Positions 7,869-29,578 of a stretch of DNA of 64,000 nucleotides are shown piece by piece. Numbering within the stretch: position 1 is the stretch's first letter; the number at the start of each line of letters is the position of its first letter. The stretch comes from an alpha proteobacterium IMCC14465 (GTDB taxonomy: Bacteria; Pseudomonadota; Alphaproteobacteria; RS24), in NCBI GenBank assembly GCA_000293845.2, contig ALYF01000010.1, forward strand, positions 1-64,000. Direction: 5' to 3'. Both the position numbers and the translations under genes were made by a program. The notes beneath the pieces are model-generated. The model had not been told where the DNA came from. It was given only the letters and a program-made list of their open reading frames with translations, and searched no databases.

Positions 7869-8555
7869 TTGACGTCGCAGTCTACGGAATTACCCCAAAA
7901 TTTTGAAAAAAAAGAAACCAGAGGGCGCAAGCGTCTTTTGAAGAGAGATGATATTTTGAAGGGGGCATTGTCTATTGGATTAGACAATCTGACCATGAAA
8001 ACACTTGCCGAGCATCTTAATGTCGGCACAGCCACGCTTTATCAATATTTTGAAAACAGAGAAAATCTAATGATGGAAGCGGCTGAGTACTCAATTAAGC
8101 TGCTACCGTTTCCTGATTATCGAGGGCAGGGGTGGCAGGAGCTGGCAATTGAATACACTCAAAATGTCCAAAGAATTTTGAAGCAGCACCCATCCTTTAT
8201 TCATAGTCATCCGGTGACTGATTACGGCTATAAAATTCATTTCACGTTGACCGAGAAAATTCTCACTGATTTGGTTTCATGTGGTCTTGATGCCAAACAG
8301 GCAATCCAAGTGGCTCATATCATTACCATGGCGTCTTATGGGGGAGCTGTTGAAGCTATCAGGCAGGAGCGTTTACCAATCGAGGGGGCAGACATCCAAA
8401 GTTATATTGCCGGGCAATTCAAAGAAATGGATTCCAATGAATTTCCAATTTTGTCAGAGAATATTGAAGATTTTATTCTCTCGGCAGAGGATAAGACGAA
8501 TTTTTTGCTGAAAATAGCACTCGCTAATATTCAGAGCGAGTTTGAAAAAAAATAA
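7869..8555 (+). CDS. TetR/AcrR family transcriptional regulator
   Basis: A 228-residue regulator. The N-terminal helix-turn-helix is clear (LTMKTLAEHLNVGTATLYQY, residues about 38-57), followed by FENRENLM, the usual start of helix 4. The C-terminal ligand domain is not recognisable as a named subfamily. The only start that keeps the DNA-binding domain intact appears to be TTG at 7869, so the exact start is uncertain. It is followed 19 bp later by the sulfatase gene and is divergent from an SDR/aldehyde dehydrogenase operon. It probably controls one or both in response to a small molecule. Confidence 0.8.
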   Translation: MTSQSTELPQNFEKKETRGRKRLLKRDDILKGALSIGLDNLTMKTLAEHLNVGTATLYQYFENRENLMMEAAEYSIKLLPFPDYRGQGWQELAIEYTQNVQRILKQHPSFIHSHPVTDYGYKIHFTLTEKILTDLVSCGLDAKQAIQVAHIITMASYGGAVEAIRQERLPIEGADIQSYIAGQFKEMDSNEFPILSENIEDFILSAEDKTNFLLKIALANIQSEFEKK

Positions 8556-8574
8556 AATTTAAGGGGGGTATCTT

Positions 8575-10065
8575 ATGCGGTTAGGTCTTTTAATCCTGCT
8601 GTTTGTTGCATTTATTTCAGGCGCAAAAGCATCAGAAAAACCGAATATTGTCATTATTTTAGCTGATGATTTGGGGTATGCCGATCTCGGTTTTCGTGGC
8701 AGTGACATTCAGACTCCGAACCTTGATCGACTAGCGGCTGAAGGTATTGTGCTGAACCGTTTTTATTCATTACCAATTTGCACGCCCACCCGTTCTGCCC
8801 TGATGACCGCCCGCGACCCGATAAAACTCGGCACGGCTTATGCAGGTTTACAACCGTGGGAAAATGGCGGTGTTTCGCCTGATGAACATTTTATGCCTGA
8901 AAGTTTCAAGAAGGCTGGCTATCAAACCGCTATGATTGGGAAATGGCATATTGGACGGCAATATGAATCCCTTGTGCCGCATCATCGTGGCTTTGACCAT
9001 TTCTTTGGTCATTTGAACACGCAAGTGGATTACTACACGCATGCTTCTGCTGGTGGTCATGACTTGCAGGAGAATGGCAAATCCCTCAAACGTGACGCCT
9101 ATGCCACTGATATTCATGGGGATGAGTCAGTGAGATATTTGAAAGAAATTCGTGACCCCTCAAAACCTTTTTTGCTCTATGTGCCGTTTCTTGCCCCGCA
9201 TAGCCCGATGCAAGCACCTGAAGCGTTAGAGGCTAAATATAAGTCACGGCTTAACTTCCCTGTTCCCAAGCGCACCTATGCCGCCATGGTCGACTCAATG
9301 GATCAAGCGATTGGACGCATTATGGATGAGCTGGATCGTCAGGGTGTGAGCGATAACACAATCATTTTGTTCTTTAGCGATAATGGTGGTTTTGCCGGAT
9401 TTGGCGGCGTCAACAAGCCTTATCGTGGTGGCAAATTAGAAACCTTTGAGGGCGGCATTAGAGTCAATGCAATCATGCGCTGGCCTGGAGCAATCCCAGC
9501 TGGGAGCAAAACGGCTCAAGCCATTTCGGTGATGGATGTCTTCCCAACTCTTGCCGCTGCCGCAGATATCGAGATGCATAATGAGAAAAAAATCGACGGG
9601 ATAAATATTTTAAAGGCGCTGACAAAGGCGAAAAATATTAAGCGGCCAAAACCGCTTTTCTTCGCGTCAAACAGCCCTGAATATAATTCATTCCGTCTTG
9701 CCATGATAGATGGTGACCATAAGCTGGTTCAAATTATTGATCACAATAATAGGTCAACCGAAATCACGAACCATCTATTTGATTTGAGCAATGACCCTTA
9801 TGAGAAAAATAATCTGGCAGAGGAAAACCCGTTAAGGGTGAAAAAAATGTCTGATGCGATAAATGACTGGCGGTCGCAACATCCGGTGAGTGGGCTTTAT
9901 GTGTCTATTTCGCCTAACCCGTCTTGGCGTGCGCCTGCTGATTATGCCGAGGATGTGCGTCCGGATAATCAAACTATACTTAAATCATGGGGCGGGTTTG
10001 GGCGCGTTGCGTCTCAAGTTTTGCAAATGCGGTATGGCGAAAAAGGTCGTATCAAATACGAATAA
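8575..10065 (+). CDS. Secreted type I sulfatase (arylsulfatase family)
   Basis: A 496-residue sulfatase with an N-terminal signal peptide ending near GAKAS. Metal ligands are visible in LADDLGYADLG (D31, D32). The active-site signature C69-T-P-T-R matches the CxPxR motif, whose Cys becomes formylglycine through a maturase that is not in this window. A second metal site is suggested by FFSDNGG. It would hydrolyse sulfate esters in the periplasm. AAGGGGGGTATCTT precedes the ATG. It sits between TetR and an alkylsulfatase-like gene, next to steroid genes, so sulfated sterols or other organosulfates are candidate substrates. Confidence 0.88.
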   Translation: MRLGLLILLFVAFISGAKASEKPNIVIILADDLGYADLGFRGSDIQTPNLDRLAAEGIVLNRFYSLPICTPTRSALMTARDPIKLGTAYAGLQPWENGGVSPDEHFMPESFKKAGYQTAMIGKWHIGRQYESLVPHHRGFDHFFGHLNTQVDYYTHASAGGHDLQENGKSLKRDAYATDIHGDESVRYLKEIRDPSKPFLLYVPFLAPHSPMQAPEALEAKYKSRLNFPVPKRTYAAMVDSMDQAIGRIMDELDRQGVSDNTIILFFSDNGGFAGFGGVNKPYRGGKLETFEGGIRVNAIMRWPGAIPAGSKTAQAISVMDVFPTLAAAADIEMHNEKKIDGINILKALTKAKNIKRPKPLFFASNSPEYNSFRLAMIDGDHKLVQIIDHNNRSTEITNHLFDLSNDPYEKNNLAEENPLRVKKMSDAINDWRSQHPVSGLYVSISPNPSWRAPADYAEDVRPDNQTILKSWGGFGRVASQVLQMRYGEKGRIKYE

Positions 10066-10077
10066 TTGGAGGGGATT

Positions 10078-11508
10078 ATGGGAAAAATTTTAAAATTTAT
10101 AGCCATCGGTGTGGTCGGGCTCCTTGTGGTGGGTTTCTTGACCTATCAATATTCCGACAGTGCAAAGAAGCTGGTGCAATTGCAGGCACTTGATACCGTT
10201 CACGATTTGGCAACGAGCCGTATGAAAAAGCAGGCGGAAAATGGCTCAACAAGTGTGGCGGCTGAATTTATTAATTTCCCGATTGAGGCGACGGAAGTCG
10301 CTAAAGGCGTCATCCGCGTCACGGGGATTGGTAACATTTATATGGTGCCGACCGATGCAGGCAATGTGCTGTTTGATACGGGTCTGGTGATGCAGGTTCC
10401 AAAACAAATTGCTGCGATGAAAGCTGCGGTGCCGAATAATAAGCTGACGCATATCGTCCTTAGCCATTCTCATGCGGACCATATTGGCGGCGTCAAATAC
10501 TGGAAAGAAGATGGTGTTGAGATTATCGCACATGACCAGTTCACGGAGGAGCAACGCTATCTCAAAGCGCTTGAACCTTATCTGCATGGCCGTAACCGTC
10601 TTTTATTTCCTTTTATGCCGGAAGAACCGCCAACAGCAGATATGATTGCCTATGGTGGGATTACACCAACACTGACCATTAAAGAAGGTGACAGCTATCG
10701 TCTCGAACTTGGCGGTAAAGTCATGGATATTTACGCGATGGCAGGTGCAGAGGGCGCCGATAATATGGTGATGTGGTTGCCTGAACAGAAGGTGCTTCTT
10801 TCTGGTGATTTCTTTGGTCCTATGTTTCCGCAATTTCCAAATGTATTCACCATGCGCGGTGAGAAAATCCGTAAACCTGCCGAATATATCAGATCGCTTA
10901 ATCGTCTGATTGACTTGGCTCCTGAGGTTATTCTTCCGGGCCATCTTGACCCCGTGACAGGGCAAGAAAAAATTGTTGCCGGTCTGACAAAAATGAGAGA
11001 CGCCGTGCAATATGTTCATGATGAAACCATTGCCGGTATGAATAGCGGAAAAACACTTTATGAGCTGATGGAAACCATCACTCTGCCGCCTGAACTTGAC
11101 TTATCACAAGCGCATGGCCGTGTGTCTTGGGCGGTGAAAAGCATCTGGGAATATTATGCAACATGGTTCCATTTTGACCGGACAACTGAGCTTTACGGCG
11201 TTGACAGGGGTGATGTTATGCCCGATGTCGTCGCACTAGCTGGGGCGACAGCCTTGCTTGAAAAAGCGCGTACGTTTAATACAGCCGATCAACCTGTTCA
11301 TGCCATGCACATTATTGAAATTTTGCTGGCAGACCCAATGCAGGCCTCTGACCCTATGGTTAATCAGGTAAGGCTCGAAACCTTACAGATATTGCTTGAT
11401 AAGGCGGTTAACGGGATTGAAAATAGCTATGAGATTTACTGGTTGAATGCCCAGATTCGTGAGGCGGAAGCTTTACTTGCCGGTAATGAAAATAGTCCTG
11501 AAGGTTAA
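10078..11508 (+). CDS. Metallo-beta-lactamase-fold alkylsulfatase-like hydrolase
   Basis: A 476-residue protein starting with a membrane anchor or uncleaved signal (residues about 4-24). The zinc motif is H130-S-H132-A-D134-H135, followed by further ligands in LLSGDFF and LPGHLDP. The C-terminal half (AHGRVSWAVKSIWEYYATWF onward) matches the dimerisation domain of SdsA1-type alkyl sulfatases. These enzymes release sulfate from alkyl sulfates. The ATG at 10078 follows GGAGGGGATT; an in-frame TTG at 10066 is less likely. Its stop codon overlaps that of the convergent HupE-like gene by 4 bases. Together with the preceding sulfatase it suggests an organosulfate-desulfation unit. Confidence 0.8.
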   Translation: MGKILKFIAIGVVGLLVVGFLTYQYSDSAKKLVQLQALDTVHDLATSRMKKQAENGSTSVAAEFINFPIEATEVAKGVIRVTGIGNIYMVPTDAGNVLFDTGLVMQVPKQIAAMKAAVPNNKLTHIVLSHSHADHIGGVKYWKEDGVEIIAHDQFTEEQRYLKALEPYLHGRNRLLFPFMPEEPPTADMIAYGGITPTLTIKEGDSYRLELGGKVMDIYAMAGAEGADNMVMWLPEQKVLLSGDFFGPMFPQFPNVFTMRGEKIRKPAEYIRSLNRLIDLAPEVILPGHLDPVTGQEKIVAGLTKMRDAVQYVHDETIAGMNSGKTLYELMETITLPPELDLSQAHGRVSWAVKSIWEYYATWFHFDRTTELYGVDRGDVMPDVVALAGATALLEKARTFNTADQPVHAMHIIEILLADPMQASDPMVNQVRLETLQILLDKAVNGIENSYEIYWLNAQIREAEALLAGNENSPEG

Positions 11509-12707
11509 ATTAACAGTCGTTCAGCAAACCAGAATAAGCTCAGTCCAAACATTGCAGGCGCGACAAGATTTTCAAATCTATCGCGCCTGAAGTTTGTGCG
11601 CATTTCAAGGCTGGATATCACAATATAGACCGCAATAAGGGCGGTGAGTTGTGCCAATTCGACACCAAGATTAAAGCCGACTAAAGGTGTGAGGATATCG
11701 CTTTTATCAAGGTTGATATGTTTTAAGCCACCTGCAAATCCTGCGCCGTGAACAAGACCAAAGGCGACGGTGAGAAGGGGAAATAGCTTTGTCTTGGTTT
11801 GCCCGGATTGGCTGAGATGTTGGTAGCTAAACAGCGCGAGAGGCAGAGTGAAGAACAAGCCCGTTGATAGCGGCAGTCGTCCAAGATATATCGCCAGTCC
11901 GCAAATAAGCATCAGACCAATACTGAGCAACATCGCGGAAAGAGGGCGTGTTTTCTCGGCTTTTCCCGCTATATCATAGGCCGTCAGAGCAATGGTCAGG
12001 CCGATAAGGGCCTCTATCATTTTTTCATGTGGCGTGATGATGTCCATATAAGCCAGCGCCAATGTCAGGCTATGCCCAAGCGTGAAGCCTGTAATACAAA
12101 AAACAGCCAATCGCGGCGTGGCGGCAAAGAGCGCTAGGGCGAGCAGAAAAATCATATGATCGAGGCCGGAGATGACATGAATAAAGCCGAGCCCGATAAA
12201 GGCGCTCAAGCTGTCGATAAAGTCCCGCACTTCAAAAACAAAATATTGCTGCGCATTATTCAGCACAATCTCCTGATTTTCGCCGGCGATAGAAAATCTG
12301 GCAAGATGAATATGAGCTGGCGATACGGGGGTAAAGCTCGAAATTGTGATGACAGGTGCTGAGGCGATTATGGTTTCGGGGCAGATGACTTGTCCACGTG
12401 CGCGAAAATAACCACTCATAGTGTGCTGAGTGACATTCAGATTTTCTAAGGGGCAGGGTGTTTTATTTTGGATGACATGAAGGGTGTCCGTAAGATGGCG
12501 ATGCAGGAGTGCGGCATAATCCATGGACGGATAAAGTTGAGCAAGCTGGGTGATACGCCGTTGGTCAACCGAGAAGATGAATTTCAAGCTATTCGCTTCT
12601 TTTTCAGAGATAATTTCCCATTGCGAAAAAGACTGGCTTTTTGTATGCGCTAAAGCGTCGACTTGCGCGGCAACAATCATGACGAAAAACAAGAATAAAG
12701 CGCGCAT
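11505..12707 (-). CDS. HupE/UreJ-2 family membrane protein
   Basis: A 400-residue protein with a signal peptide (MRALFLFFVMIVAAQVDALA), a periplasmic N-terminal domain of about 150 residues, then six or seven transmembrane helices. The membrane part has the HupE/UreJ signatures LGFIHVISGLDHMIFLLAL and FTLGHSLTLALA, whose His/Asp residues bind nickel or cobalt in the known members. No hydrogenase or urease genes are nearby, so the metal or substrate is open. Its start overlaps the stop of the PpiC-like gene (ATGA), showing translational coupling. Confidence 0.75.
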   Translation of the reverse strand: MRALFLFFVMIVAAQVDALAHTKSQSFSQWEIISEKEANSLKFIFSVDQRRITQLAQLYPSMDYAALLHRHLTDTLHVIQNKTPCPLENLNVTQHTMSGYFRARGQVICPETIIASAPVITISSFTPVSPAHIHLARFSIAGENQEIVLNNAQQYFVFEVRDFIDSLSAFIGLGFIHVISGLDHMIFLLALALFAATPRLAVFCITGFTLGHSLTLALAYMDIITPHEKMIEALIGLTIALTAYDIAGKAEKTRPLSAMLLSIGLMLICGLAIYLGRLPLSTGLFFTLPLALFSYQHLSQSGQTKTKLFPLLTVAFGLVHGAGFAGGLKHINLDKSDILTPLVGFNLGVELAQLTALIAVYIVISSLEMRTNFRRDRFENLVAPAMFGLSLFWFAERLLI

Positions 12708-13612
12708 CAGTTTCTATAATCTGGCGGGGTGGTGTAATCGCTGTGTTCGATAGTCTCAATCACCTCGTCGTGAAGTCGGATGTCTGCCGAACGTCGTAAA
12801 TCACGCAGATAGCTCTCAAATGCTTTTTCTTCCTGACGTCTTTGCCATTCTGCGGTGACGATATCCTTAACTTCGCCGAATTGAACATCCAGACGTGTCG
12901 CTTTCATTAGCCATATATACATATATTGTGGATTGGCGGTGCTACCCGATTTTATCGGGCCAATAATCTCGCCTTCTTGCAATTTTGCCAGCCTGTCTCG
13001 TGCCGTGCCACCGAGATAATCAGCGGCTTTGCCAAGGGGAATATCGTCAGGTAGGTCTTTGCCGGTTAACCCAAGTCGTTGCCCAGCGGCTTCAAATGCC
13101 TCACCATTTCTTATGGCCTGTTTGAAGGCATCTGCGATAGACGCATCATTGGTCGTCAAGGCTTTTACCCGCACCATGCGTGGGGCTATAAATAAATGCT
13201 TATTCTCGGCAAAGAATGCTTCCAGCGTCGCCGTGTCAGTTTCATAGTCAGTCAGCAAGGCAGTGCTGCGCATAAGAGCTTGCACCAAATTCTTGCGCGC
13301 CATAGGGTCTGACCGCGCCAGGCCAATGGCGAGCGCATGTTGCAAAATAACTTCTTCATCAATGAGGACTTGCAACGCGGTTTTTTTATCAGCCTCGGTC
13401 AGACTGCGATCTAGCCCGGCCTGCATGGCTGTGAGTGCGCGCAGATACTCAACCTTACTCACCCCCTCACCATTAATGGAGGCGACGGGTACATCGCTGG
13501 ATACGCGCAGGTTTTGATTGCCGAATTGAGGCGGCAGAATACCTAATGCCGTGAGCGAAGCAAGCGTCAGCCCTGCCAATCCTGCCAGTGTGAATAGAAG
13601 CGTGTTTCTCAA
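12707..13612 (-). CDS. PpiC/SurA-like peptidyl-prolyl isomerase
   Basis: A 301-residue protein with an N-terminal signal or anchor (MRNTLLFTLAGLAGLTLASL), a helical SurA-like segment (VSKVEYLRALTAMQ ... LIDEEVILQHALA) and a parvulin-like region around residues 145-250 (KEGEIIGPIKSG-type motif, here LQEGEIIGPIKSGS). It is likely periplasmic and assists folding. It lies between, and is coupled to, HupE-like and DUF3604 genes. A chaperone dedicated to the neighbouring exported proteins is a reasonable inference. Confidence 0.7.
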   Translation of the reverse strand: MRNTLLFTLAGLAGLTLASLTALGILPPQFGNQNLRVSSDVPVASINGEGVSKVEYLRALTAMQAGLDRSLTEADKKTALQVLIDEEVILQHALAIGLARSDPMARKNLVQALMRSTALLTDYETDTATLEAFFAENKHLFIAPRMVRVKALTTNDASIADAFKQAIRNGEAFEAAGQRLGLTGKDLPDDIPLGKAADYLGGTARDRLAKLQEGEIIGPIKSGSTANPQYMYIWLMKATRLDVQFGEVKDIVTAEWQRRQEEKAFESYLRDLRRSADIRLHDEVIETIEHSDYTTPPDYRN

Positions 13613-13649
13613 AACGCATTCAACCTTATTGCATCATCATTTTATCTGA

Positions 13650-15926
13650 CTATTGACCAGCCTGTGCAGACCTATTGGCACCATAATTCAGATAAATGGG
13701 TGATGACCATGCCCGCACATCTTTCATGCTCAGACAGTCATCATCGCCTGATCTGTAATCGCCTGTGCAAACTTTGGCACGCACGCAATTACCTTCTTCG
13801 TCATATTCGCATTTCACCGGCTCAGCGTTTACTGTCGGCATGGGCTCCTGAATGGCACGGGCATAATAAAGCGCGTCTCTTTCACCAGCTTTAAAGTCGG
13901 GGTCGGAGAAACTGAAGCTACAGCCATTTGGGTCAGCTGCGCAATTGTGAACAAGAAACGGATCATCGATTAAATCACCCAGTTTTTCATCTGGTGAGGT
14001 TTGTGGGCGGATACGCACAATTTCAATGCGCTCAATCAGATTACGTTCGTCGGTCGGGTTATAACATTCCCCGCCGCAAATATCATTCAGGCGCTCAGTG
14101 CCTAAGGCGGCGACTGCGTGGTCAGGACAACCTGGCTTTTGCTTGAACGACCCAACGGCTTTCACTTTGAAAGTGCCGCTTGAGGTGGTCTCGATAGATG
14201 AGCCCATCGGTGTTTGAGTGCCATCACTTGCGACATGATCGAACCACATCAACATGCGTGGGCCAGATGTGCCGTAGGTTTCACGTCTTTGTAAAGCGTC
14301 CCAGACTTCCTCGCGGGAGCGACCTTCTGTATGTACAGCGGCAAGGCCACCTGTTAGCCAGAAGCTAGATTGACGTTCAACTTCAGCCAGGCCGAGATTG
14401 GCATTTTTAGCAAGCTCGACCGGATCCAACGGATGCACATAGGCGTCTACGGGTGTGATTTCGGGTTGTAATCTTGCCAACCACTCAGCAGATTTCGGGC
14501 CTGCGGCCTCGGTGTTAAGGCGTCGGCCAAATTCCTTATATCCCGTACCTGGGCGCGCACGGTGATTGTCAGAAGACGAAATAAAGCCCCAGTTAAAGCG
14601 GGTTGGATTTTCAGCATCTTCATCAAAACGCGACAGGGCGAGACCGGCTTGAACACTGGTCAAGGGACGGTGATGAAATGCGGGTAAATAACAATCAGTA
14701 CATTGCCCTGACAATAGCCAGTCAGCAGCTGTGTCGCCGCCCAGTGCAAGGTGATAAGATGGTCCCATAAAGGCTGCAACGTCTCTGGCCTCTGAGGCAC
14801 GCAAGGTGCATTCTTCAGATGACGTTCCCTCGGCGAGACAGCGTTCCTCAACAATCTCACCCATACGGACGCAGGATGGTGTGTAATCTTGCGTGGCGGG
14901 CGGGCAGATGGCTTTGCCATTATCGTCAATGATAAGCGTTTCAAAGTCTCTATATTCTTCTGAGTTACCGTGACCGGAGAAGATTTCAATCAACGAATAT
15001 TCTTCTGGTCGGTTTTCAGGTTTGAGTTGCTTATCCCATGTTGTGTTATGCGGCGTATAGAGACCCCAGCTTGTGCCATGTGGGATGATAAGCGGGTCAA
15101 GATTTTGTTCGTCTCTAAGCTTACGAATAAGGTCGCCGGGGGTAACAGCTGTTTCATAACAATTTGCCGGAAGCTCGTTTGACGGCGTGTCAGCATCACA
15201 TTCTGGCACGGCCTGAATATTGTTGAAAAAAGTATTGAAGTCCCAGTATATCTGACGGTCTTCAAATTCCATGAGAGACACAATGGCTGGCATGCCTTTG
15301 GCATTTTTTCTAAGCGCCAGTGAGGTTATACCTGCGGCGGCAACCGTTCTGACAGGTACGTCTTTATCTTCAAGCCCCTTAAAAATGACATTCTTATGGC
15401 CATAATGGGTCTCAGGTGTGATGCCAACTTGTGTCCATTCAAAACCAATCATAGACACCATGTCAGGATTTGACTGGTCGTTGGATTTGGCCTGACATTC
15501 GCGGATACTTTGTTTTGCATTTTCCCAGCGCTCGGGGATGGAGGCTTCGGCGTGGTCGGTAATAGCCCAGAAATCTAGCGCCGAGCAGTAGCGCGCATAA
15601 TCGCAGGCGTCAGCAAGTGGATGAATGCCTTTGCCCTGATAAAGGGGAAGTGACCATAAAAACGCATCGGTAGAATAGGTTGTATGTACGTGCAAATCGC
15701 CAAACATGATTTGATCGCGGTTCGGGGCAGGCGCAACAGAAGATTCTGCAAGCTGGCGTGCCAGTACAATGTCATCGGGTATCGCTTCGCCTTGAATAAT
15801 GCCGCGTTCGCGTTCGCTTCCAAGGTGTCCATTTTCCGATAAAAAACTAAATACAAACCAACTGCCCACCAGTGCGAGTACAATAGCTGACAGGCTCAAA
15901 ATTGCTTTTTTAAAACCACGAGACAT
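13650..15926 (-). CDS. DUF3604 domain protein, exported
   Basis: A 758-residue protein with an N-terminal membrane anchor or signal (residues about 8-29). The remainder matches DUF3604, a PHP-like putative metal-hydrolase fold. The residues D77-x-H79-x-H81 in FGDLHVHTTYSTDA, D124-H125 in AITDHAEA, HGTSWG and the late SSSDNHRARPGTGYKEFGR segment look like a metal site. Many Cys residues in the C-terminal half suggest disulfides and a periplasmic location. No reaction is established for the family as far as I know. It probably leads an operon with PpiC-like and HupE-like genes. Confidence 0.75.
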   Translation of the reverse strand: MSRGFKKAILSLSAIVLALVGSWFVFSFLSENGHLGSERERGIIQGEAIPDDIVLARQLAESSVAPAPNRDQIMFGDLHVHTTYSTDAFLWSLPLYQGKGIHPLADACDYARYCSALDFWAITDHAEASIPERWENAKQSIRECQAKSNDQSNPDMVSMIGFEWTQVGITPETHYGHKNVIFKGLEDKDVPVRTVAAAGITSLALRKNAKGMPAIVSLMEFEDRQIYWDFNTFFNNIQAVPECDADTPSNELPANCYETAVTPGDLIRKLRDEQNLDPLIIPHGTSWGLYTPHNTTWDKQLKPENRPEEYSLIEIFSGHGNSEEYRDFETLIIDDNGKAICPPATQDYTPSCVRMGEIVEERCLAEGTSSEECTLRASEARDVAAFMGPSYHLALGGDTAADWLLSGQCTDCYLPAFHHRPLTSVQAGLALSRFDEDAENPTRFNWGFISSSDNHRARPGTGYKEFGRRLNTEAAGPKSAEWLARLQPEITPVDAYVHPLDPVELAKNANLGLAEVERQSSFWLTGGLAAVHTEGRSREEVWDALQRRETYGTSGPRMLMWFDHVASDGTQTPMGSSIETTSSGTFKVKAVGSFKQKPGCPDHAVAALGTERLNDICGGECYNPTDERNLIERIEIVRIRPQTSPDEKLGDLIDDPFLVHNCAADPNGCSFSFSDPDFKAGERDALYYARAIQEPMPTVNAEPVKCEYDEEGNCVRAKVCTGDYRSGDDDCLSMKDVRAWSSPIYLNYGANRSAQAGQ

Positions 15927-15956: not shown

Positions 15957-16412
15957 TTATGGATAGTATCTGCTAATTGTATCTACGACACAAGCAGGGC
16001 GCTCCTCTCCCTCAATTTCGATTGTGATACGTAAGGTAGATTGGATGCCACCCTTCATTTCTTCGACTGTGATAAACTCACCAATCGCACGAATGCGTGC
16101 CCCGACTTTTACGGCATTCGGGAAGCGCGCCATGCCGACGCCATAATTGACGCCCATAGACATCTGCTTAACCTCAATTAGTTGAGGCAGGAATTTATTG
16201 GCGAGGGATAAAGTAAGATAGCCATGCGCGATGGTGCCGCCAAATGGCCCGTCCTTGGCTTTTTCTGCATCTACATGAATCCATTGATGGTCATCTGTGG
16301 CATCAGCAAACATATTGACCCGGTCTTGTTTCATCTCCACCCAGTCTGTCGGGCCGAGAGTGACGCCTTCCTGACCAAGAAGCTCTGCAGGTGTTTCATA
16401 TATTTTTACCAT
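15957..16412 (-). CDS. MaoC-like hot-dog hydratase
   Basis: A 151-residue single hot-dog protein. It shows the (R)-specific enoyl-CoA hydratase motif FADATDDHQWIHVD (Asp and His of the catalytic pair) followed by GPFGGTIAHGYLTLSL. It would hydrate 2-enoyl-CoA intermediates. The ATG at 16412 fits the family start; a longer frame to 16562 would add 50 unrelated residues overlapping the SDR gene. The gene follows the SDR at 16423 by 10 bp and ends the long minus-strand catabolic run. Confidence 0.85.
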   Translation of the reverse strand: MVKIYETPAELLGQEGVTLGPTDWVEMKQDRVNMFADATDDHQWIHVDAEKAKDGPFGGTIAHGYLTLSLANKFLPQLIEVKQMSMGVNYGVGMARFPNAVKVGARIRAIGEFITVEEMKGGIQSTLRITIEIEGEERPACVVDTISRYYP

Positions 16413-16422
16413 TTTTATTCCC

Positions 16423-17211
16423 CTAAGCGTGTTGGCTGGAAGCTGAAATAACTTCGCCTGTAAGATAAGATGAATAGTCACTGGCAAGGAACACCATAAT
16501 ATTTGCCTGCTCCCAAACTTCACTGCCGCGCCCAAACGCTTCCTTGGCTTCAAGCTCGGCAAGCAATTCTTTCGTTGTTACCTTGTGTAAAAACTCATGA
16601 ATAGCAAGGCTTGGTGCAACAGCATTTACCCGAACGCCAAATTCCGTGCCTTCAATTGCGGCACAGCGTGTCAGTGCCATAACGCCAGCCTTCGCAGCCG
16701 CATAATGTGCCTGTCCCTTTTGTGCGCGCCAACCCAGCACAGAGGCATTATTCACAATCACGCCTTGTTCTTGTTCTTTCATAATCTGCATAGCGGCGCG
16801 GTTAATTCTAAAGCAACCATTTAAAGTCACATCAAGAACCATAGACCACTGCTCATCGGTCATATCAATAATATCTGCTGTGCCACCAAGACCTGCATTG
16901 TTAATGACAATATCAATGCGCCCAAGTGATTTTTGGGCGGCGGCAAATAAAGCGTCCACATCATCTTGAACCGTGACATTGCATAAACCCGTATCGGGTT
17001 TTTGTCCGGTAACGGACTCTAGTCTCTCGGCGGCATCGGCAAGACGCCCTTCATGGATATCAGAAATAAAGACAGTCGCCCCTTCTTCGATGCATTTTCG
17101 CGCCGCAGCAAAGCCGATACCTGTGCCTGCGGCGGCGGTGATGACGACTGTTTTGCCAGCGAGGAGGTTATGCCCCTCGACATAGTTAGGGGGGAGTTTC
17201 AAATTAACCAT
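16423..17211 (-). CDS. SDR family dehydrogenase, IpdF-like
   Basis: A 262-residue SDR. The glycine motif is unusual: AAAGTGIG instead of TGxxxGxG. From memory this variant also occurs in IpdF-type SDRs (Rv3559c), the 5-hydroxy-HIP-CoA dehydrogenase of steroid ring C/D degradation. NNAGLGG and the catalytic Tyr-x3-Lys (HYAAAKAG) are present. The ATG at 17211 overlaps the stop of the acyl-CoA dehydrogenase gene by 8 bases; a longer frame to 17352 is a read-in artefact. Context with acyl-CoA dehydrogenases, thiolase and IpdC-like genes supports an IpdF role, but this is inference. Confidence 0.75.
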   Translation of the reverse strand: MVNLKLPPNYVEGHNLLAGKTVVITAAAGTGIGFAAARKCIEEGATVFISDIHEGRLADAAERLESVTGQKPDTGLCNVTVQDDVDALFAAAQKSLGRIDIVINNAGLGGTADIIDMTDEQWSMVLDVTLNGCFRINRAAMQIMKEQEQGVIVNNASVLGWRAQKGQAHYAAAKAGVMALTRCAAIEGTEFGVRVNAVAPSLAIHEFLHKVTTKELLAELEAKEAFGRGSEVWEQANIMVFLASDYSSYLTGEVISASSQHA

Positions 17212-18361
17212 TTGCACTGCCTCTTGGTTCTTTGGGCATGCCCAAAGCGCGTTCGGAAATAATATTCCGCTGAATTTGGTTCGTGCCTGCGTAAATTGTA
17301 TCTGCACGGGAGAATAAGAAGAGTTTTTGAAGGGGCGAAAGTTCGTCTTCAATTATCTCAGCATCTGCGCCGATAACATCCATTGCCAGTTCACCCAAAT
17401 CTCGATGCCATGTGGCCCAGAAGATTTTGGAGATATAACCTTCTTTGCTGGTGCTGCCATCTTGCGTACCGTTTAGCATGCGGAGCGCATTAAAGCGCAT
17501 GACTTTCAGTCCGGCATGCGCCTCGGCAATACGGCGGCGTAAGGTGGGGTCTTTGGCGCGTCCGTTTTCATTGGCAGTTTTAATGATGAGGTTCAGCTCA
17601 TTTTGGAACATCATTTGTTGACCAAGGGTCGATGCCCCGCGCTCAAAGCCCAGCAATGCCATGGCGATTTTCCAGCCTTCGCCGACATCACCAATCATAT
17701 TTGTGGCGTCGGTTTTAGCTTCCGTGAAATAGACCTCGTTAAATTCTGCCGTTCCGCTTATCTGGTGAATAGGGCGGATTTCTATGCCCGGCTGGTCAAG
17801 CTCGACCAATAAGAAAACAAGACCATCGCGGCCTTTCGAGCCTTCTTCAGCGCGTGCGATAACGAAAATCCAGTCGGATTCATGGGCGAGTGATGTCCAA
17901 ATTTTTTGACCATTAATCACCCAGCTGTCACCGTCTAAGCGGGCCTTGGTTTTAATGTTAGACAGGTCAGAGCCGGCATTGGGTTCGGAATAGCCTTGGC
18001 ACCATAATTCGGTGCCATTTTTGATGCCGGGTAGGAAGCGCTCTTTCTGCGCTTCTGAGCCATAAGCGAGTATTGTCGGTGCCATAAGTGTTTCACCAAT
18101 GTGACCAGCGCGTCCCGGACCACCATGGCGCGCATATTCTTCGTTAAATTCGACAAAATCCATCAAGCTTAAATCGCGCCCACCATATTCTTTGGGCCAT
18201 TGCAGACCAATCCATCCAGCTTCACCGAATTTTTGTTCCCATGCACGGCGTAATTCAGGGGAAGAGTCCTCATCTCCCGGACCACCACGCCAGCGGATTT
18301 GTTCAAATTCGCCGGTTAAGTTCTCCAGCATCCATTGGTTGAGTTCTTCGCGAATACTCAT
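17204..18361 (-). CDS. Acyl-CoA dehydrogenase, FadE large-type subunit
   Basis: A 385-residue acyl-CoA dehydrogenase with family motifs QGYSEPNAGSDLSNIKTKA, INGQKIWTSLAHESDW and IYAGTNQIQRNIISERALG. The position of the MCAD catalytic Glu (YEGT) is Ala. A Glu in GFERGAST lies where isovaleryl-CoA-type enzymes place their base. The ATG at 18361 follows AGGAGAGTGAT; longer frames only read into the next gene. It is adjacent to a second subunit gene (18363), the paired arrangement of heterotetrameric steroid acyl-CoA dehydrogenases in actinobacteria. Confidence 0.88.
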   Translation of the reverse strand: MSIREELNQWMLENLTGEFEQIRWRGGPGDEDSSPELRRAWEQKFGEAGWIGLQWPKEYGGRDLSLMDFVEFNEEYARHGGPGRAGHIGETLMAPTILAYGSEAQKERFLPGIKNGTELWCQGYSEPNAGSDLSNIKTKARLDGDSWVINGQKIWTSLAHESDWIFVIARAEEGSKGRDGLVFLLVELDQPGIEIRPIHQISGTAEFNEVYFTEAKTDATNMIGDVGEGWKIAMALLGFERGASTLGQQMMFQNELNLIIKTANENGRAKDPTLRRRIAEAHAGLKVMRFNALRMLNGTQDGSTSKEGYISKIFWATWHRDLGELAMDVIGADAEIIEDELSPLQKLFLFSRADTIYAGTNQIQRNIISERALGMPKEPRGSANG

Positions 18362-18362
18362 A

Positions 18363-19484
18363 TCACTCTCCTGAGATGTCTGTTGTGTTTTGCGCCAGAC
18401 CAATTTGATCTGCAAGCATTTGGAAACCGTCTTCGGAAGATGTAAAGAGGGCGCGGTTGCCGCGGGCGCGTTTGAAAAAATAGTGCAGGGGATATTCCCA
18501 TGTGAAGCCAATGCCGCCATGCATCTGAATGGCGTCGCCTGCAATTTTGAAATAAGCTTCGGCGGCATAATTTTTAGCAATTAATGAAGCTTCAAATTTT
18601 GCTACAGGGTCATCATCCAAATCAGGGGATGCGGCGAAATATGACGCCGAGCGTGCGCTTTCAAGAGCAATGAACATATCCGCGCATTTATGCTTTACCG
18701 ATTGGAAGCTTCCGATTTGTCTGCCGAATTGAACCCGTTGATTGGCATAATCCAGTGTCATATCCAAGCATCGTTGCCCGCCGCCGACACATTCTGCCGC
18801 CAAGGCGCCATGAGCAATCTGAAGAATTTGTGAAAAAGCGGTATTATCCGTTTTGCCTATCGCTTGCCCATCAGACAGGGCAACATTCTCAAAGAATACT
18901 TTTGCCTGACTTCGGGTCGGGTCTATGGAGGCAAAAGGCGTTACGCTTAACCCTGCCGTATTCGGGCTGTAGCCCGTCAACGCAACATTGTTATCTTCAT
19001 CATAAGCCGCCACCAAAATAAGATCCGCATGCGCTGCATCTGTTGCAGGTGAGACAACGCCGCTTAGTGCGCCATTTTTAAGTGTTAGTTGATTGCGACC
19101 ATCGAGAACAGAAATAATAATGTCGCCACTGGCAATCTTGCTCAGTAAATCCGCTTTGTCATCTTCGCTAGCAAAGGCCTCAATCATATCTGCGCCTAGC
19201 ACACAGGTTGAGAAAAATGGCGCACTGAAAAGCGTATAGCCGGTTTCTTCCATAATCACTGTGCGGCCTAACAGCCCCATGCCTGCGCCGCCATATTGTT
19301 CGGCTATGCTGATACCCGCCATGCCTTGATCACGGGCGAAGCCTTCCCAAGCGGTGCGGTCAAACCCCTGACCTTCCTTGGCGACACGGTGCAGGGTTTT
19401 CCCGCCATCTTCCCAATCAGACAACCAGCCTTTAACGGCCTCGCGGATCATGTCGTGATCTTCCTGAAATGGAAATGACGGCAT
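18363..19484 (-). CDS. Acyl-CoA dehydrogenase, partner subunit
   Basis: A 373-residue acyl-CoA dehydrogenase-like protein. It has the N-terminal helical domain (EDHDMIREAVKGWLSDW, FARDQGMAGISIAEQYGGAGMGL), a short beta domain and C-terminal RVQFGRQIGSFQSVKHKCADM and MHGGIGFTWEYPLHYFFKRAR motifs. It is shorter and more diverged than the partner at 17204, as expected for the second subunit of an alpha2beta2 enzyme. One base separates the two genes, so co-translation is likely. The specific CoA-ester substrate is not known. Confidence 0.85.
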   Translation of the reverse strand: MPSFPFQEDHDMIREAVKGWLSDWEDGGKTLHRVAKEGQGFDRTAWEGFARDQGMAGISIAEQYGGAGMGLLGRTVIMEETGYTLFSAPFFSTCVLGADMIEAFASEDDKADLLSKIASGDIIISVLDGRNQLTLKNGALSGVVSPATDAAHADLILVAAYDEDNNVALTGYSPNTAGLSVTPFASIDPTRSQAKVFFENVALSDGQAIGKTDNTAFSQILQIAHGALAAECVGGGQRCLDMTLDYANQRVQFGRQIGSFQSVKHKCADMFIALESARSASYFAASPDLDDDPVAKFEASLIAKNYAAEAYFKIAGDAIQMHGGIGFTWEYPLHYFFKRARGNRALFTSSEDGFQMLADQIGLAQNTTDISGE

Positions 19485-19489
19485 AGGCT

Positions 19490-20368
19490 TTAACTCCCGT
19501 AAACTTTTTGGGCTGGCGGTGTAATCTCGATTAACTCACGGAGTACCGCTTCGATTTCTTCTGGTTCGTAACGTGCTTCTTTATCTTTAATCGGGCCGGT
19601 TTTATAGCCGTCAGCAATAGATAGTTTTCCGCCAAAGGACTCGAAGCAATAGCCATTAATATCTGCTGACTGTGAACTGCAGAGATAGACAATGAGAGGG
19701 GCGACATTTGCCGGGTCGAATTTATCGAAACTGCCATCTTCAGGCACTTTCATCATTTCGGCAAAGACCTCTTCTGTCATACCTGTACGGCCTTGCGGGG
19801 CAACCGAATTTGCGGTGATGCCATAACGGGCCAGCTCGGCAGATTGGTTGAGGGTTAGTGTCAATATCCCACCCTTTGCGGCTGCATAATTGGTCTGCCC
19901 AACTGAACCTTGCAGTCCCGCGCCGGAACTGGTGTTGATAATCCGCGCATCGGGGTTCTCCCCATTTTTGGATTTTTCACGCCAGTATTTTGCGGCATGA
20001 GAGGAGAGGCAGAAATGCCCTTTTAGATGCACGCGTATGACAGCGTCCCAGTCATCCTCACTGAGCGAGGTGAACATGCGGTCTCTATTATTACCTGCAT
20101 TATTCACCACGGCATGCACATCGCCAAAACGTTCAATGGTGGCTGCTAGAATTTTGCCTGCCGAGGCGTAGTCCGTAATGTCATCGAGATTAACAATCGC
20201 CTGACCACCTGCATCATTAATGATTTTGACAGTGTCGGCGGCTGTGTCAGCATTAATGTCATTAACCACGACATTGGCTCCCGCCGCTCCGAGCGCGATG
20301 GCATAGGCGCGGCCTAAGCCGCCACCTGCGCCTGTGATGATTATTGTTCTATTGTCACATAAGCCCAT
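19490..20368 (-). CDS. SDR family 3-hydroxyacyl-CoA dehydrogenase-like protein
   Basis: A 292-residue SDR with TGAGGGLG, VNNAGNNRD and YAAAK motifs. A C-terminal extension of about 35 residues (KDKEARYEPEEIEAVLRELIE) resembles the hydroxyacyl-CoA dehydrogenase domain of type 2 multifunctional enzymes. The likely step is oxidation of a 3-hydroxyacyl-CoA before thiolysis. It lies 2 bp from the thiolase gene, which fits that role. Confidence 0.8.
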   Translation of the reverse strand: MGLCDNRTIIITGAGGGLGRAYAIALGAAGANVVVNDINADTAADTVKIINDAGGQAIVNLDDITDYASAGKILAATIERFGDVHAVVNNAGNNRDRMFTSLSEDDWDAVIRVHLKGHFCLSSHAAKYWREKSKNGENPDARIINTSSGAGLQGSVGQTNYAAAKGGILTLTLNQSAELARYGITANSVAPQGRTGMTEEVFAEMMKVPEDGSFDKFDPANVAPLIVYLCSSQSADINGYCFESFGGKLSIADGYKTGPIKDKEARYEPEEIEAVLRELIEITPPAQKVYGS

Positions 20369-20370
20369 AT

Positions 20371-21522
20371 TTAGAGCCTTTCAATGATGGTCACATTAGC
20401 CACACCACCACCTTCACACATGGTTTGCAGACCATAACGCCCGCCTGTGCGCTCAAGTTCATTGAGCAGGGTCGCCATGAGTTTTGTGCCCGTTGCGCCA
20501 AGTGGATGACCCAGCGCAATTGCGCCGCCATTCACATTGGTTTTCTCATGCGGATAGCTGGTTTCTTTCAGCCAAGCCATAGGCACCGGGGCAAAAGCCT
20601 CGTTAATCTCGACGAGGTCAATATCATCCAGTGACATGCCGGTTTTCTTCAACGCATATTCCGTAGCAGGAATAGGGGCTGTCAGCATGAAAATCGGGTC
20701 ATCACCGCGGACACTCATATGATGAATACGGGCGCGCGGCTTCAGATTATATTTTTTAACGGCATCTTCAGAAGCCAATAACATGGCTGATGCGGCATCG
20801 GATGTCTGACTGGAAATACCTGCATGGATGCGTCCGCCTTCTTGAATTGGCTCTAGGGTCGCCATTTTTTCCATTGTGGTATCGCGTCTGACGGTCTCGT
20901 CCATATCGAGGCCGTTAAACGACACAACCTCATTGTCAAAGCGGCCTTCATCAATTGCGTTTGCGGCTCTCTGGTGACTGGCGAGCGCATAAGCTTCCAT
21001 CTCTTCTCTGGAAATATCCCATTTTTCAGCAATCAATTCCGCGCCATGAAATTGTGAGACCGGTTCGTGACCATATCGTTTGACCCAGCCTTCTGAGCCT
21101 GAGAACGGATCGTTAAAGCCAAGAGGCTTAGCGAGAACCATGGCGGAACTAATTGGAATTTTTGTCATTGTCTGCACACCGCCAGCAATAACAAGGTCTT
21201 GAACGCCTGCCATAATGCCTTGCGCGGCGAAATGAACAGCTTGCTGCGATGACCCACATTGACGGTCAACGGTCACACCAGGAATGGCTTCGGGCAGTCC
21301 TGCCGTGAGCCAGGCTGTTCGCGCAATATTACCAGCCAGAGGTCCAACCGCGTCAAGACAACCAAAGACGACATCATCATAATCTTCTGCAGGAATATCA
21401 TGCTTATCAACCAGCGTGCGCAGAATAAAAGCGCCAAGATCAGCACCATGCACATCCGCAAGGGTCCCTTTGCGCCGACCTGTCGGTGTGCGGATTGCAT
21501 CAATAATGTAAGCTTCGCCCAT
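20371..21522 (-). CDS. Thiolase (acetyl-CoA acyltransferase), FadA5/FadA6-like
   Basis: A 383-residue thiolase. The nucleophile is C89 in [11 protein letters not shown]. The general-base His is in [11 protein letters not shown], and the second Cys is in MCEGGGVAN near the C-terminus; NEAFAP is also present. The ATG at 21522 follows TAAGGAGAAAATT; an upstream in-frame start at 21573 adds 17 residues without support. It would cleave 3-oxoacyl-CoA esters. In this cluster it is the candidate FadA6/FadA5 counterpart of ring or side-chain degradation. Confidence 0.9.
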
Positions 21523-21532
21523 AATTTTCTCC

Positions 21533-22519
21533 TTAATAACTAAAAGTTGTTCCCGGACCAAGTTCAGCATCATCCGCTAAAATCAGAGTTTCGAGAATAT
21601 TAATATGATGATTGCGGTCTCCCCATTCACCGCAAAGCGCCCATGCGCGTTTCATGAACATGTGCAAACTAACTTCAAACGTATAACCCATCCCACCATG
21701 AACTTGAATGGCTGTTTCTGCGGCTAACATCGCTGTATCTATGGCAGAGATTTTGGCTTGATGCACGCAGCGACCCATTTGTGAGGCGGCGAGTTGAACA
21801 ATCGGGCGGGTGAATTCAATTTGCGTATGTACATTCGCTAGCTGATGTTTAATGGCTTGAAACGACCCGATTTGCTTTCCGAATTGTTCACGGTCTTTGG
21901 CATAGTCCACAGACAGAGTGACCATGCGCTTTGACAGACCGCAGAGAAAGGCCGCATTGAGAATTGTGCCGCGTTGGTCAATCTCATCCAGCCCGTCGCC
22001 AGCCTGTGAAATTTTAAATAGCTTGCGTAGTGGGTCGATAGATTTCAACGGGGTGAGGGTAACATTATTTTTATCAATCAGACGCGCTTTGCCGCCTTCA
22101 CCAATCAGAAACATATCTGCTTCATCTGCATGGCTAACCATACCGGACAAACCGTTAACGGGCAGGACTTTAAGCGCGCCGGAAACCACGCCGTTTAATT
22201 CGTCCGTTGCCCCCATCTCGGCGAGAACAGGTACGCTAATGCCTGCCATGTCGATAAGCGGTTCAGTGAGAGCAACATTGCCGGCCATTTCAGCGATAGC
22301 CGCCATGACAGAGAAATCCTGTGCCAGCCCGCCATTATCTTCGGGCGCCATGAGACCCAATAGTCCCAATTCAGCAAAATTATCCCATAAAGAAGGTGTG
22401 GTATCAGATGTATCAGTCTCCAGAAACTGACGCATATACTCAACTGTATGCTCGCCGGTAAAGAAGCCGTCCGCCGCGTCAATGAGTTCTTGTTGGTCTG
22501 ACGTGTAAATTAAATTCAT
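21533..22519 (-). CDS. Acyl-CoA dehydrogenase, short partner subunit
   Basis: A 328-residue acyl-CoA dehydrogenase-like protein, short for the family (about 380). The N-terminal segment (YTSDQQELIDAADGFF, LGLLGLMAPEDNGGLAQDF) and C-terminal REQFGKQIGSFQAIKHQLANVH and VHGGMGYTFEVSLHMFMKRA motifs are intact, while the middle domain is reduced. The ATG at 22519 fits; the frame to 22681 reads into the neighbour. It is paired with the gene at 22530, probably as the second subunit of a heteromeric enzyme. Confidence 0.85.
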   Translation of the reverse strand: MNLIYTSDQQELIDAADGFFTGEHTVEYMRQFLETDTSDTTPSLWDNFAELGLLGLMAPEDNGGLAQDFSVMAAIAEMAGNVALTEPLIDMAGISVPVLAEMGATDELNGVVSGALKVLPVNGLSGMVSHADEADMFLIGEGGKARLIDKNNVTLTPLKSIDPLRKLFKISQAGDGLDEIDQRGTILNAAFLCGLSKRMVTLSVDYAKDREQFGKQIGSFQAIKHQLANVHTQIEFTRPIVQLAASQMGRCVHQAKISAIDTAMLAAETAIQVHGGMGYTFEVSLHMFMKRAWALCGEWGDRNHHINILETLILADDAELGPGTTFSY

Positions 22520-22529
22520 GCCGATGCTC

Positions 22530-23687
22530 TTATTGCCTTGGAAGACCGAGAACGCGCTCGGCAAGAATATTGCGTTGAATTTCATTTGTGCCGGCATAGA
22601 TAGGACCGGCAAGGCTGAACATATAACCATCCAACCATCTGCCATTCTCAATCGCGCCGTCGCCTTCTTCCAGTTCGGCATGCATGCCCATAATTGTCAT
22701 GGCTGTGCGGTGCATGGCACGGTCCATCTCAGACCAGAAAATCTTATTTGCGCTGGCCTCGGAGGATATGGACGCGCCGCTATCAACCTGCGCGACAAGG
22801 GCATACGTGGCGGCGGTGAATCTTTCCGTATCGCCCCATGCCTGAAGGACTTGCTCTTTAATGCCGGAAGAAAGACGATTGGCGTTTTGCTTGTATAGTT
22901 TCACCAGCCTTGCGGCGGCGGCCTGAAAGCGTGCGGGCGAGCGAAGCAAAAGACCTCTCTCAAATCCAGCCGTTGCCATGGCCACGCCCCAGCCGCCATT
23001 TTCAGGACCTAGAAGATTCTCGACGGGGACACGCACCTCGTCAAAAAATAGCTCGGCAAAACCGGGGTCGCCATCCAATTGGGCAATCGGGCGCACTGTC
23101 AGGCCGGGGCTGTCGAGTGGCACGAGGATTTTAGATAGGCCGTGATGTCGGCTGCTTTCAGGGTCGGTTCTGAACAGGCCAAAACACCAATCGGCAAATA
23201 CAGCGCGTGATGACCAGATTTTCTGTCCGGAGATGACATATTCATCGCCATCGCGCACAGCCTTACTTCGGATAGCTGCCATATCGCTGCCTGCGCCGGG
23301 TTCTGACCATGCCTGCGCCCAGATTTCATCTCCCGCCGCCATAGGCTTCAAGAAGCGTTCTTTCTGTGCGTCTGTGCCATATTCCATAATGGTCGGGCCG
23401 AGCAAGAAAATACCATTTTGGCTCACCCTTAAAGGCGCGTCAGCGCGGTAATATTCTTCTTCAAAAATCAACCAATCGGTGAGGCTACATCCGCGCCCAC
23501 CAAATTCTTCAGGCCATGTGACCATGCCCCAATTTCCGGCATGAAGCTTGCGCTCCCAGTCGCGGTGAAGGTCAAACCCTTCTTGCGTATCGAGAGAGGG
23601 GAGGCGGTCATTCGGCACATTGGCACTCAGCCAGTCTCTGACTTCCTGGCGAAAGCCGTTTTGTTCATCTGAAAATACAGCGTCCAT
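22530..23687 (-). CDS. Acyl-CoA dehydrogenase, FadE large-type subunit
   Basis: A 385-residue acyl-CoA dehydrogenase with WSEPGAGSDMAAIRSKAV, ISGQKIWSSRAVFADW and IYAGTNEIQRNILAERVLGLP motifs. As in the protein at 17204, the MCAD-type catalytic Glu is Ala (YAGT) and AGFERG offers the alternative Glu. Its stop is 10 bp before the start of the partner subunit at 22519, and its ATG overlaps the crotonase stop by one base. Part of an apparent single transcript. Confidence 0.88.
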   Translation of the reverse strand: MDAVFSDEQNGFRQEVRDWLSANVPNDRLPSLDTQEGFDLHRDWERKLHAGNWGMVTWPEEFGGRGCSLTDWLIFEEEYYRADAPLRVSQNGIFLLGPTIMEYGTDAQKERFLKPMAAGDEIWAQAWSEPGAGSDMAAIRSKAVRDGDEYVISGQKIWSSRAVFADWCFGLFRTDPESSRHHGLSKILVPLDSPGLTVRPIAQLDGDPGFAELFFDEVRVPVENLLGPENGGWGVAMATAGFERGLLLRSPARFQAAAARLVKLYKQNANRLSSGIKEQVLQAWGDTERFTAATYALVAQVDSGASISSEASANKIFWSEMDRAMHRTAMTIMGMHAELEEGDGAIENGRWLDGYMFSLAGPIYAGTNEIQRNILAERVLGLPRQ

Positions 23688-24445
23688 TATTCATCCCCAA
23701 AATCGGCAGCCTTGCCGGTCTCAACAAAAGCGTCACGGGATTTCTGGCTGTCCTCATGCATATACATTTCAAAAGTAAAGCCCTGTTCCCAGCGATAGGA
23801 TGCATCCACGTCAAAAGGCTCAATGCCGTTTAATGCCTGTTTAGCAATCCGAAGGGCGTCGCGGCTCTTGCCAGCAACAAGCGCGGCAAGTTTATGTGCT
23901 TCTTCTTCCAGTTTGTCGCGCGGAACAACATTTTCTATTCCGCCAAGGCGATGCATTTCTTGTGCTGTGATTTGCCCGCCAGTTAAGAATGCCGAGCGCA
24001 CTTTTGTCAGCGGTATCATTCTTTGTAAATGTGACGCGCCGCCCATAGCACCACGGTCAATTTCGGGTAATGAGAAAAAGCAATCATCTGATGCAATAAC
24101 AATATCTGATGCACCACACATGCCGATGCCGCCGCCAATCACAAAACCATGCGGCGCAGAAATCACCGGCATCTCGCAATGGTGAATGGCTTTAAAAGTT
24201 TCATAATTGCCTTTATTAACCTCGACAATTGCTGCGCTGTCTGCGGCAAGTTCCTTAATATCAACACCGGCGCAAAAGCCTTTACCTTCAGCACGGATAA
24301 GAAGAACGCGCACATCTTGTCGCTTGCCTAAATCTGTGATGATGGCGGGTAGTTCGTTCCATGTCTGGCTGTTAAACGCATTGACGGGTGGGTGATCAAG
24401 CACTAGCTCGGCAATATTGTCGGCGACATTTACATTGATAGGCAT
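23687..24445 (-). CDS. Enoyl-CoA hydratase/isomerase family protein (EchA20 candidate)
   Basis: A 252-residue crotonase. The oxyanion-hole segments are GKGFCAGVDIKEL and FVIGGGIGMCGASDIVIAS. In the actinobacterial HIP pathway a crotonase (EchA20) hydrolyses ring D in a cluster with ipdC and fadE genes; this gene directly precedes an IpdC-like gene in the same order of functions. Plain hydratase activity is the alternative. The start overlaps the following gene by one base. Confidence 0.8.
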   Translation of the reverse strand: MPINVNVADNIAELVLDHPPVNAFNSQTWNELPAIITDLGKRQDVRVLLIRAEGKGFCAGVDIKELAADSAAIVEVNKGNYETFKAIHHCEMPVISAPHGFVIGGGIGMCGASDIVIASDDCFFSLPEIDRGAMGGASHLQRMIPLTKVRSAFLTGGQITAQEMHRLGGIENVVPRDKLEEEAHKLAALVAGKSRDALRIAKQALNGIEPFDVDASYRWEQGFTFEMYMHEDSQKSRDAFVETGKAADFGDE

Positions 24446-24448
24446 GCT

Positions 24449-25519: not shown

Positions 25520-25523
25520 ATTA

Positions 25524-26435: not shown

Positions 26436-26498
26436 ATTTTAGCCCTTTCCGATATTCTATATGACGACACTTAATTTGGTAGTGTCCTAATTGGTTAA

Positions 26499-27401: not shown

Positions 27402-27436
27402 CTCATCACCCCTGATTAATATTTATATTTTATTTT

Positions 27437-29439: not shown

Positions 29440-29493
29440 TTTCATGATCCTTTTTGTCTCGACTGTCTGTTTAGAATTAAAGAATATCAAATA

Positions 29494-29522
29494 TGCGTAA
29501 AATTAAAACAGTTTTTTACGAA
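29494..29522. promoter_or_regulatory. Inverted TGCGTAA...TTACGAA element upstream of hsaA
   Basis: TGCGTAA (29494-29500) and TTACGAA (29516-29522) are inverted; the arms CGTAAAA and TTTTACG match perfectly. It lies about 55 bases before the HsaA start. Similar TTACGCAA elements recur upstream of other catabolic genes (31173, 45779, 45818, 48949, 48973). A shared operator is inferred. Confidence 0.45.
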
Positions 29523-29578
29523 TTTTTACTAAAAATATGTATAAAATGCCATCAATGCAGAATTTATTTCCCAAATAC

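Follow-up and report, generated by a model that had tools for sequence, protein, structure and literature searches.

Hydrogenase and urease operons encode a metalloenzyme together with a metal permease of the HupE/UreJ type and maturation factors. The anglerases, HupE/UreJ-2 proteins described by Franco Cairo et al. in 2025, consist of a signal peptide, a histidine at the mature N-terminus (His1), a beta-sandwich and a HupE_UreJ_2 permease; the domain of one of them, Ang-1, bound copper at 74 nM and nickel at 220 nM, and its nearest fold is that of ZrgA (PMC12537917). Among metal-dependent hydrolases, CehA depends on the HxH pair His313/His315 for carbofuran hydrolysis (PMC8292978). Here we describe a locus in a window of 64,000 nucleotides (contig ALYF01000010.1, positions 1 to 64,000) from the alphaproteobacterium IMCC14465, where a protein of the uncharacterised family DUF3604 is encoded next to a PpiC-like and a HupE_UreJ_2 protein. 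The parts of this trio belong to known families; no description of the module itself, of its specificity or of its cysteine-rich divergent version was found in the searchable open literature, the coverage of which is incomplete, and neither DUF3604 nor the term "peptidyl" occurs in the main text of the anglerase paper (0 occurrences; PMC12537917). The trio is a recurrent module in many proteobacteria and we propose, with a probability of roughly 0.55, that it is self-contained and makes an active, membrane-tethered periplasmic metallohydrolase of the PHP type with its own foldase or chaperone and its own metal-handling protein.

Conserved linkage of DUF3604, PpiC and HupE

Two kinds of DUF3604 protein have to be distinguished: that of the window represents a divergent subfamily (758 aa) in which 20 cysteines are present on average, most of them invariant, whereas classic members measure about 630–650 aa and have 2 cysteines on average. 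Scanning bacterial genome contigs with the DUF3604 protein of the window yielded 46 loci, in most of which PpiC and then HupE lie directly downstream of DUF3604 in the same order; in the Pelagibacterales among them the PpiC-HupE pair is divergent from DUF3604 and still adjacent, an inverted arrangement that is found in other lineages as well. PpiC and HupE overlap by 1–4 nucleotides in most loci. A trio of the window type is also present in a culturable bacterium, Maricaulis maris DSM 4734 (L031).

Among 240 alphaproteobacterial genomes, DUF3604 (PF12228) is present in 26 and HupE_UreJ_2 (PF13795) in 60, with both families in 24 and within 5 kb of each other in 23 (hypergeometric p = 1.3e-14 for the co-occurrence), and among 219 Pseudomonadota genomes HupE_UreJ_2 occurs in 11 of the 12 that are positive for DUF3604, in all 11 cases close by the listed coordinates (p = 3e-8); these p-values ignore phylogeny, and the loci span many genera and families. 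Since some HupE and PpiC genes escaped the gene calls based on the longest open reading frame in genomes of high GC content, counts were corrected by a six-frame profile search, which located PpiC in 26 of 26 DUF3604-HupE loci and near none of 20 HupE genes without DUF3604. PpiC is specific to the DUF3604-linked loci. Rare co-occurrence of the three genes in other genomes had been named, in a preliminary description of the window made from its sequence alone, as grounds for giving up the idea of a functional set; the counts above go the opposite way. The association extends to the subfamily level, in that window-type HupE matches of at least 225 bits (the next lower being 122) were obtained in 10 of the 11 genomes that carry window-type DUF3604, against 0 of the 229 others.

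No other gene accompanies the trio with comparable regularity: when longer flanks of 19 classic trio loci are compared, a further gene family is present in 4 of the 19 at most, which argues for a free-standing module and against membership in one pathway. The recurrence of the trio largely independently of its other neighbours suggests that PpiC and HupE help DUF3604 work. The source genome itself (1.9 Mb) carries three trios: that of the window, a second divergent one at C3:591868-596336, adjoining mutL, and a third at about C3:362800-366770, with a classic 652-aa DUF3604 protein.

Properties of the three proteins

In the window the trio consists of three co-directional open reading frames on the minus strand at 11505-15926, as the preliminary description had proposed and as Pfam matches above the cut-offs now bear out. 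The genes and the codons discussed below are as follows.

13650..15926, minus strand: DUF3604 protein, 758 aa (PF12228, 98 bits; AlphaFold2 model; invariant candidate ligands)
15684..15692, minus strand: HxH codons (His79, His81) of DUF3604, candidate metal ligands, invariant in 40/40 sequences of both subfamilies
14562..14570, minus strand: DxH codons (Asp453-Asn-His455) of DUF3604, candidate metal ligands, with D453 and H455 invariant in both subfamilies
12707..13612, minus strand: PpiC/SurA-like protein, 301 aa, TTG start (PF13145 Rotamase_2, 35 bits; profile matches to CBF2 and SurA)
11505..12707, minus strand: HupE_UreJ_2 protein, 400 aa, anglerase-type architecture (PF13795, 125 bits; model; invariant transmembrane residues)
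12645..12647, minus strand: His21 codon of HupE, the expected mature N-terminus after ALA|H cleavage, from invariance in alignments
12306..12314, minus strand: His132-x-His134 codons in the HupE periplasmic domain, specific to the window's subfamily

The DUF3604 and PpiC genes are separated by 37 bp, and the HupE start overlaps the PpiC stop by one base (TGATG), in accordance with the overlapping codons noted earlier for two of the genes. All three proteins have an N-terminal hydrophobic segment, as expected from their initial designation as exported or membrane proteins.

The DUF3604 protein matches PF12228 at 98.2 bits (cut-off 20.4) in three partial stretches; compared with classic members of the family it is longer, cysteine-rich and matched by the model only in parts, and it has all the candidate metal ligands in common with them. 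Its AlphaFold2 model is confident (predicted local distance difference test score 88, predicted template modelling score 0.90) and places a membrane anchor at the N-terminus (helix 3-31). A sequence search of the PDB with this protein returned nothing useful; at the level of fold, the best PDB match of the model is the PHP-superfamily phosphoesterase 3e38 (BVU_3505), a weak one (E 1.7e-3, probability 0.97, template modelling score 0.40 by target), relative to which DUF3604 has large extra domains. Across 16 divergent and 24 classic DUF3604 sequences, thirteen positions hold the same His, Asp or Glu residue throughout: H79, H81, D87, D118, D124, H125, E163, H177, H283, E314, E323, D453 and H455. 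These include HxH, DH and DxH motifs together with E163, H177 and H283, a set that we take to be the pattern expected at a multinuclear site of the PHP type, and in sequence terms all of these candidate ligands are kept in the protein of the window. The NCBIfam model for the CehA/McbA carbamate hydrolases (NF038032) aligns with the HxH/DH region at 32.7 bits, a weak domain match below the 80-bit cut-off of that model, and carbamate hydrolysis by DUF3604 is conjectural. A gene with a DsbA domain adjoins the trio in two unrelated lineages, Maricaulis and a metagenome-assembled genome (MAG) of the Rhizobiaceae, which is in keeping with a client containing 20 cysteines.

The HupE protein matches PF13795 at 124.8 bits (cut-off 24.5); a profile search with it matched no PDB sequence. 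Its model comprises a signal peptide, a beta-sandwich in the N-terminal part and, C-terminal to this, about seven membrane helices, and the nearest solved fold to the beta-sandwich, in a fold search with the model, is the zinc protein ZrgA (8F1B). The signal peptide ends in Ala-Leu-Ala (a cleavage site read by eye) and is followed by His21, which is conserved in 20/20 HupE sequences of the window's subfamily, 18/20 from classic trios and 15/16 of the unlinked proteins. By sequence and model, HupE thus carries the published metal-binding His1 architecture, and shares with Ang-1 and Ang-2 the signal peptide, the mature N-terminal His1, the eight-strand beta-sandwich, the HupE_UreJ_2 domain and the nearest fold; binding of copper or nickel by its N-domain and transport of Ni2+ are putative. 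Unlike the anglerases, it has a Cys85/Cys109 pair, invariant among trio HupEs, an HxH motif (H132 in 20/20 and H134 in 18/20 of the window's subfamily, the motif being present in 0/20 HupEs of classic trios) and a constant partnership with DUF3604 and PpiC. Within the membrane domain H177, D183, H184, H212, E232, H320 and E350 are invariant. In a HupE tree three groups track the type of linkage, namely window-type trio (support 76), classic trio (support 100) and unlinked (which needs two changes). The earlier statement that the HupE family binds nickel is too simple, given that the closest N-terminal domains that have been studied bind copper in preference to nickel (PMC12537917) and are similar to a zinc protein, so that nickel is only one candidate for the metal of HupE.

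The third protein contains a domain of the parvulin type (PF13145 Rotamase_2, 35.3 bits, cut-off 27), and its profile matches the structures of CBF2 (3rfw) and SurA, indicating a SurA-like N domain followed by the parvulin-type domain. This organization resembles that of SurA, PrsA and CBF2, unlike which both catalytic histidine positions of parvulins (HIL, YHV/YHI) are replaced across the window's PpiC subfamily, as judged by profile comparison with CBF2 and SurA and by the motif itself; many PpiC proteins of classic trios keep a histidine at both positions. Because both histidines are lost, the sequence of the window's PpiC suggests that it is probably a chaperone devoid of isomerase activity, and its designation as a foldase was too strong.

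A putative periplasmic metallohydrolase module and its alternatives

In the mechanism that we propose, DUF3604 would be a PHP-fold hydrolase whose multinuclear metal site (HxH, DH, E, H, H, DxH) faces the periplasm, and its substrate would most likely carry a group of the ester, carbamate or phosphoester type on a hydrophobic compound, the core of which would then be degraded in the cytoplasm. Fixed in the membrane alongside the enzyme, the PpiC-like protein would hold or fold it, and the N-terminal His1 domain of HupE would capture a transition metal, to be passed through the membrane domain or handed to nascent DUF3604. Gene identity, linkage and its specificity, ligand conservation, the N-terminal histidine and the degenerate state of PpiC are direct findings of this analysis; the action of HupE and PpiC upon DUF3604, the choice of metal, the direction in which it moves and the class of substrate are inferred. 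The arrangement would be akin to that of hydrogenase and urease operons, in that a metalloenzyme, a metal permease and a maturation factor are encoded together, with the difference that the client would be a periplasmic PHP-type hydrolase. The periplasmic metallohydrolase with folding and metal-supply proteins that was originally suggested for this locus thus gains from the co-occurrence of the genes, the PHP-type ligands and the His1 architecture, and is to be corrected in its wording on foldase and nickel.

Several points count against the proposed module. The PHP fold match of DUF3604 is modest (E 1.7e-3), and the roles assigned to the three proteins are read from sequences and models. The direction of metal transport assumed for HupE/UreJ-2 proteins is into the cytoplasm, whereas the DUF3604 enzyme would be periplasmic. 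Window-type DUF3604 occurs without either PpiC or HupE of the window type in three Marinimicrobia genomes and one PS1-type MAG, one further genome (G052) has DUF3604 without HupE, and many genomes contain extra DUF3604 copies outside trios; unless the assemblies are incomplete, the genomes with DUF3604 only imply that the partners are not universally needed.

A more specific version of the self-contained module, which we advance tentatively, is a dedicated periplasmic metallation pathway, in which an anglerase-type HupE would deliver or export metal for a periplasmic PHP-type enzyme with the aid of a foldase-derived chaperone. If this were true, HupE would serve an extracytoplasmic enzyme instead of nickel enzymes of the cytoplasm, and DUF3604, as a widespread family of enzymes, would possess a maturation system of its own. 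The trio would also provide an in vivo job for HupE/UreJ-2 proteins of the anglerase type, first shown in 2025 to bind metal, and would make testable how periplasmic enzymes get the correct metal. DUF3604 is met repeatedly among marine bacteria of high abundance (SAR11-type, PS1, OCS116) as well as among catabolic proteobacteria, and its constant partners turn this uncharacterised family into the subject of a concrete hypothesis, that of a periplasmic metalloenzyme with metal and folding helpers of its own.

In the foremost rival, metal acquisition, DUF3604 would cleave a periplasmic metal-ligand complex or the ligand, HupE would import the freed metal into the cytoplasm, and PpiC would assist the envelope assembly of either. 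An uptake device is indeed what the published model of anglerase HupE describes (PMC12537917), and PpiC and HupE remain paired where DUF3604 has moved away; in ten relatives, DUF3604 lies in another neighbourhood, while PpiC and HupE of the matching clade still stand side by side elsewhere in the genome. The absence of nickel-needing enzymes fits as well, as neither NiFe-hydrogenase nor urease is encoded anywhere in the source genome (99.75% complete), which extends the earlier remark that none is near the locus; a search for Ni-superoxide dismutase gave no information, since its control matched nowhere. The neighbours of the trio, however, are not metal-uptake genes, several lineages showing acyl-CoA, steroid or aromatic catabolism genes beside it instead, and no metal riboswitch or other RNA element was detected with Rfam in the window or at the two paralogous trio loci. 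On balance we consider acquisition unlikely.

That PpiC serves HupE, folding its periplasmic domain, with the pair tied to DUF3604 only via shared regulation, would account for the overlap of 1–4 nucleotides in most loci, for the integrity of the pair when DUF3604 moves, and for the joint loss of both genes from the four genomes without them. Against this, 20/20 HupE genes without DUF3604 are also without PpiC and have the same architecture, so that HupE as such needs no PpiC; moreover, in one genome (G220) DUF3604 and PpiC are together while HupE lies on a separate contig. These cases make the explanation rather improbable.

Still less probable is a role of the trio as a local component of the steroid and organosulfate degradation cluster of the window, acting only there. 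The immediate context is suggestive, with a MaoC gene 30 bp before the trio, acyl-CoA dehydrogenases, a thiolase, a BphC-like dioxygenase and an AMP ligase upstream, and, on the other side, a sulfatase and an alkyl-sulfatase-like gene of the metallo-beta-lactamase (MBL) fold, tail-to-tail with the trio; acyl-CoA dehydrogenase pairs also precede the trio in OCS116. In other genomes, however, the trio lies next to mutL, topoisomerase, potassium transporter or ammonium transporter genes, and its surroundings have no conserved pathway gene; as the neighbours differ between lineages, a pathway-specific context was rejected as a general explanation. Finally, gene order can last among close relatives, but chance adjacency or hitchhiking inheritance without functional meaning is very improbable in view of the linkage in many families with changing neighbours, the inverted arrangement in Pelagibacterales and others, the three paralogous trios, a genome-level co-occurrence that holds even for unlinked genes, and the survey results.

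Genomic surroundings and atypical loci

Upstream of the trio, on the same strand of the window (15957-31108), lies a long co-directional cluster of the ring-degradation type that resembles steroid ring degradation and comprises MaoC, two short-chain dehydrogenases/reductases, four acyl-CoA dehydrogenases, a thiolase, enoyl-CoA hydratases, a nitronate monooxygenase-like protein, a BphC-like dioxygenase, an HsaA-like flavoprotein and an AMP ligase. On the plus strand, convergent with the trio, a TetR regulator, a sulfatase and the MBL-fold alkyl-sulfatase-like gene stand in a row (7869-11508). The source genome encodes one further HupE_UreJ_2 protein, a short one (239-aa frame, G000:C3:816625-817143), which is unlinked to DUF3604.

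Window-type DUF3604 genes without PpiC-HupE occur in a second neighbourhood (L021-L024, L028, L032, L037, L047, L049 and L051), composed of old-yellow-enzyme, glutathione S-transferase, thioesterase, CoA-transferase and solute-binding protein genes. At the mutL locus of L059 and L060, a PGI-like gene takes the place of the DUF3604 gene of the source genome, and HupE is followed by a nitronate-monooxygenase-like gene. At G418:C12:454243-456335 a HupE gene adjoins a fragment of DUF3604 that contains an in-frame TGA, apparently a decaying trio. In the Pelagibacterales (L039-L043), the window-type trio has ammonium transporter genes nearby, and at L039:3646-5367 an alkyl-sulfatase-type MBL gene is again found near it; two of these genomes are represented by 0.8 Mb of sequence, and the retention of the trio in such streamlined genomes suggests that it is important.

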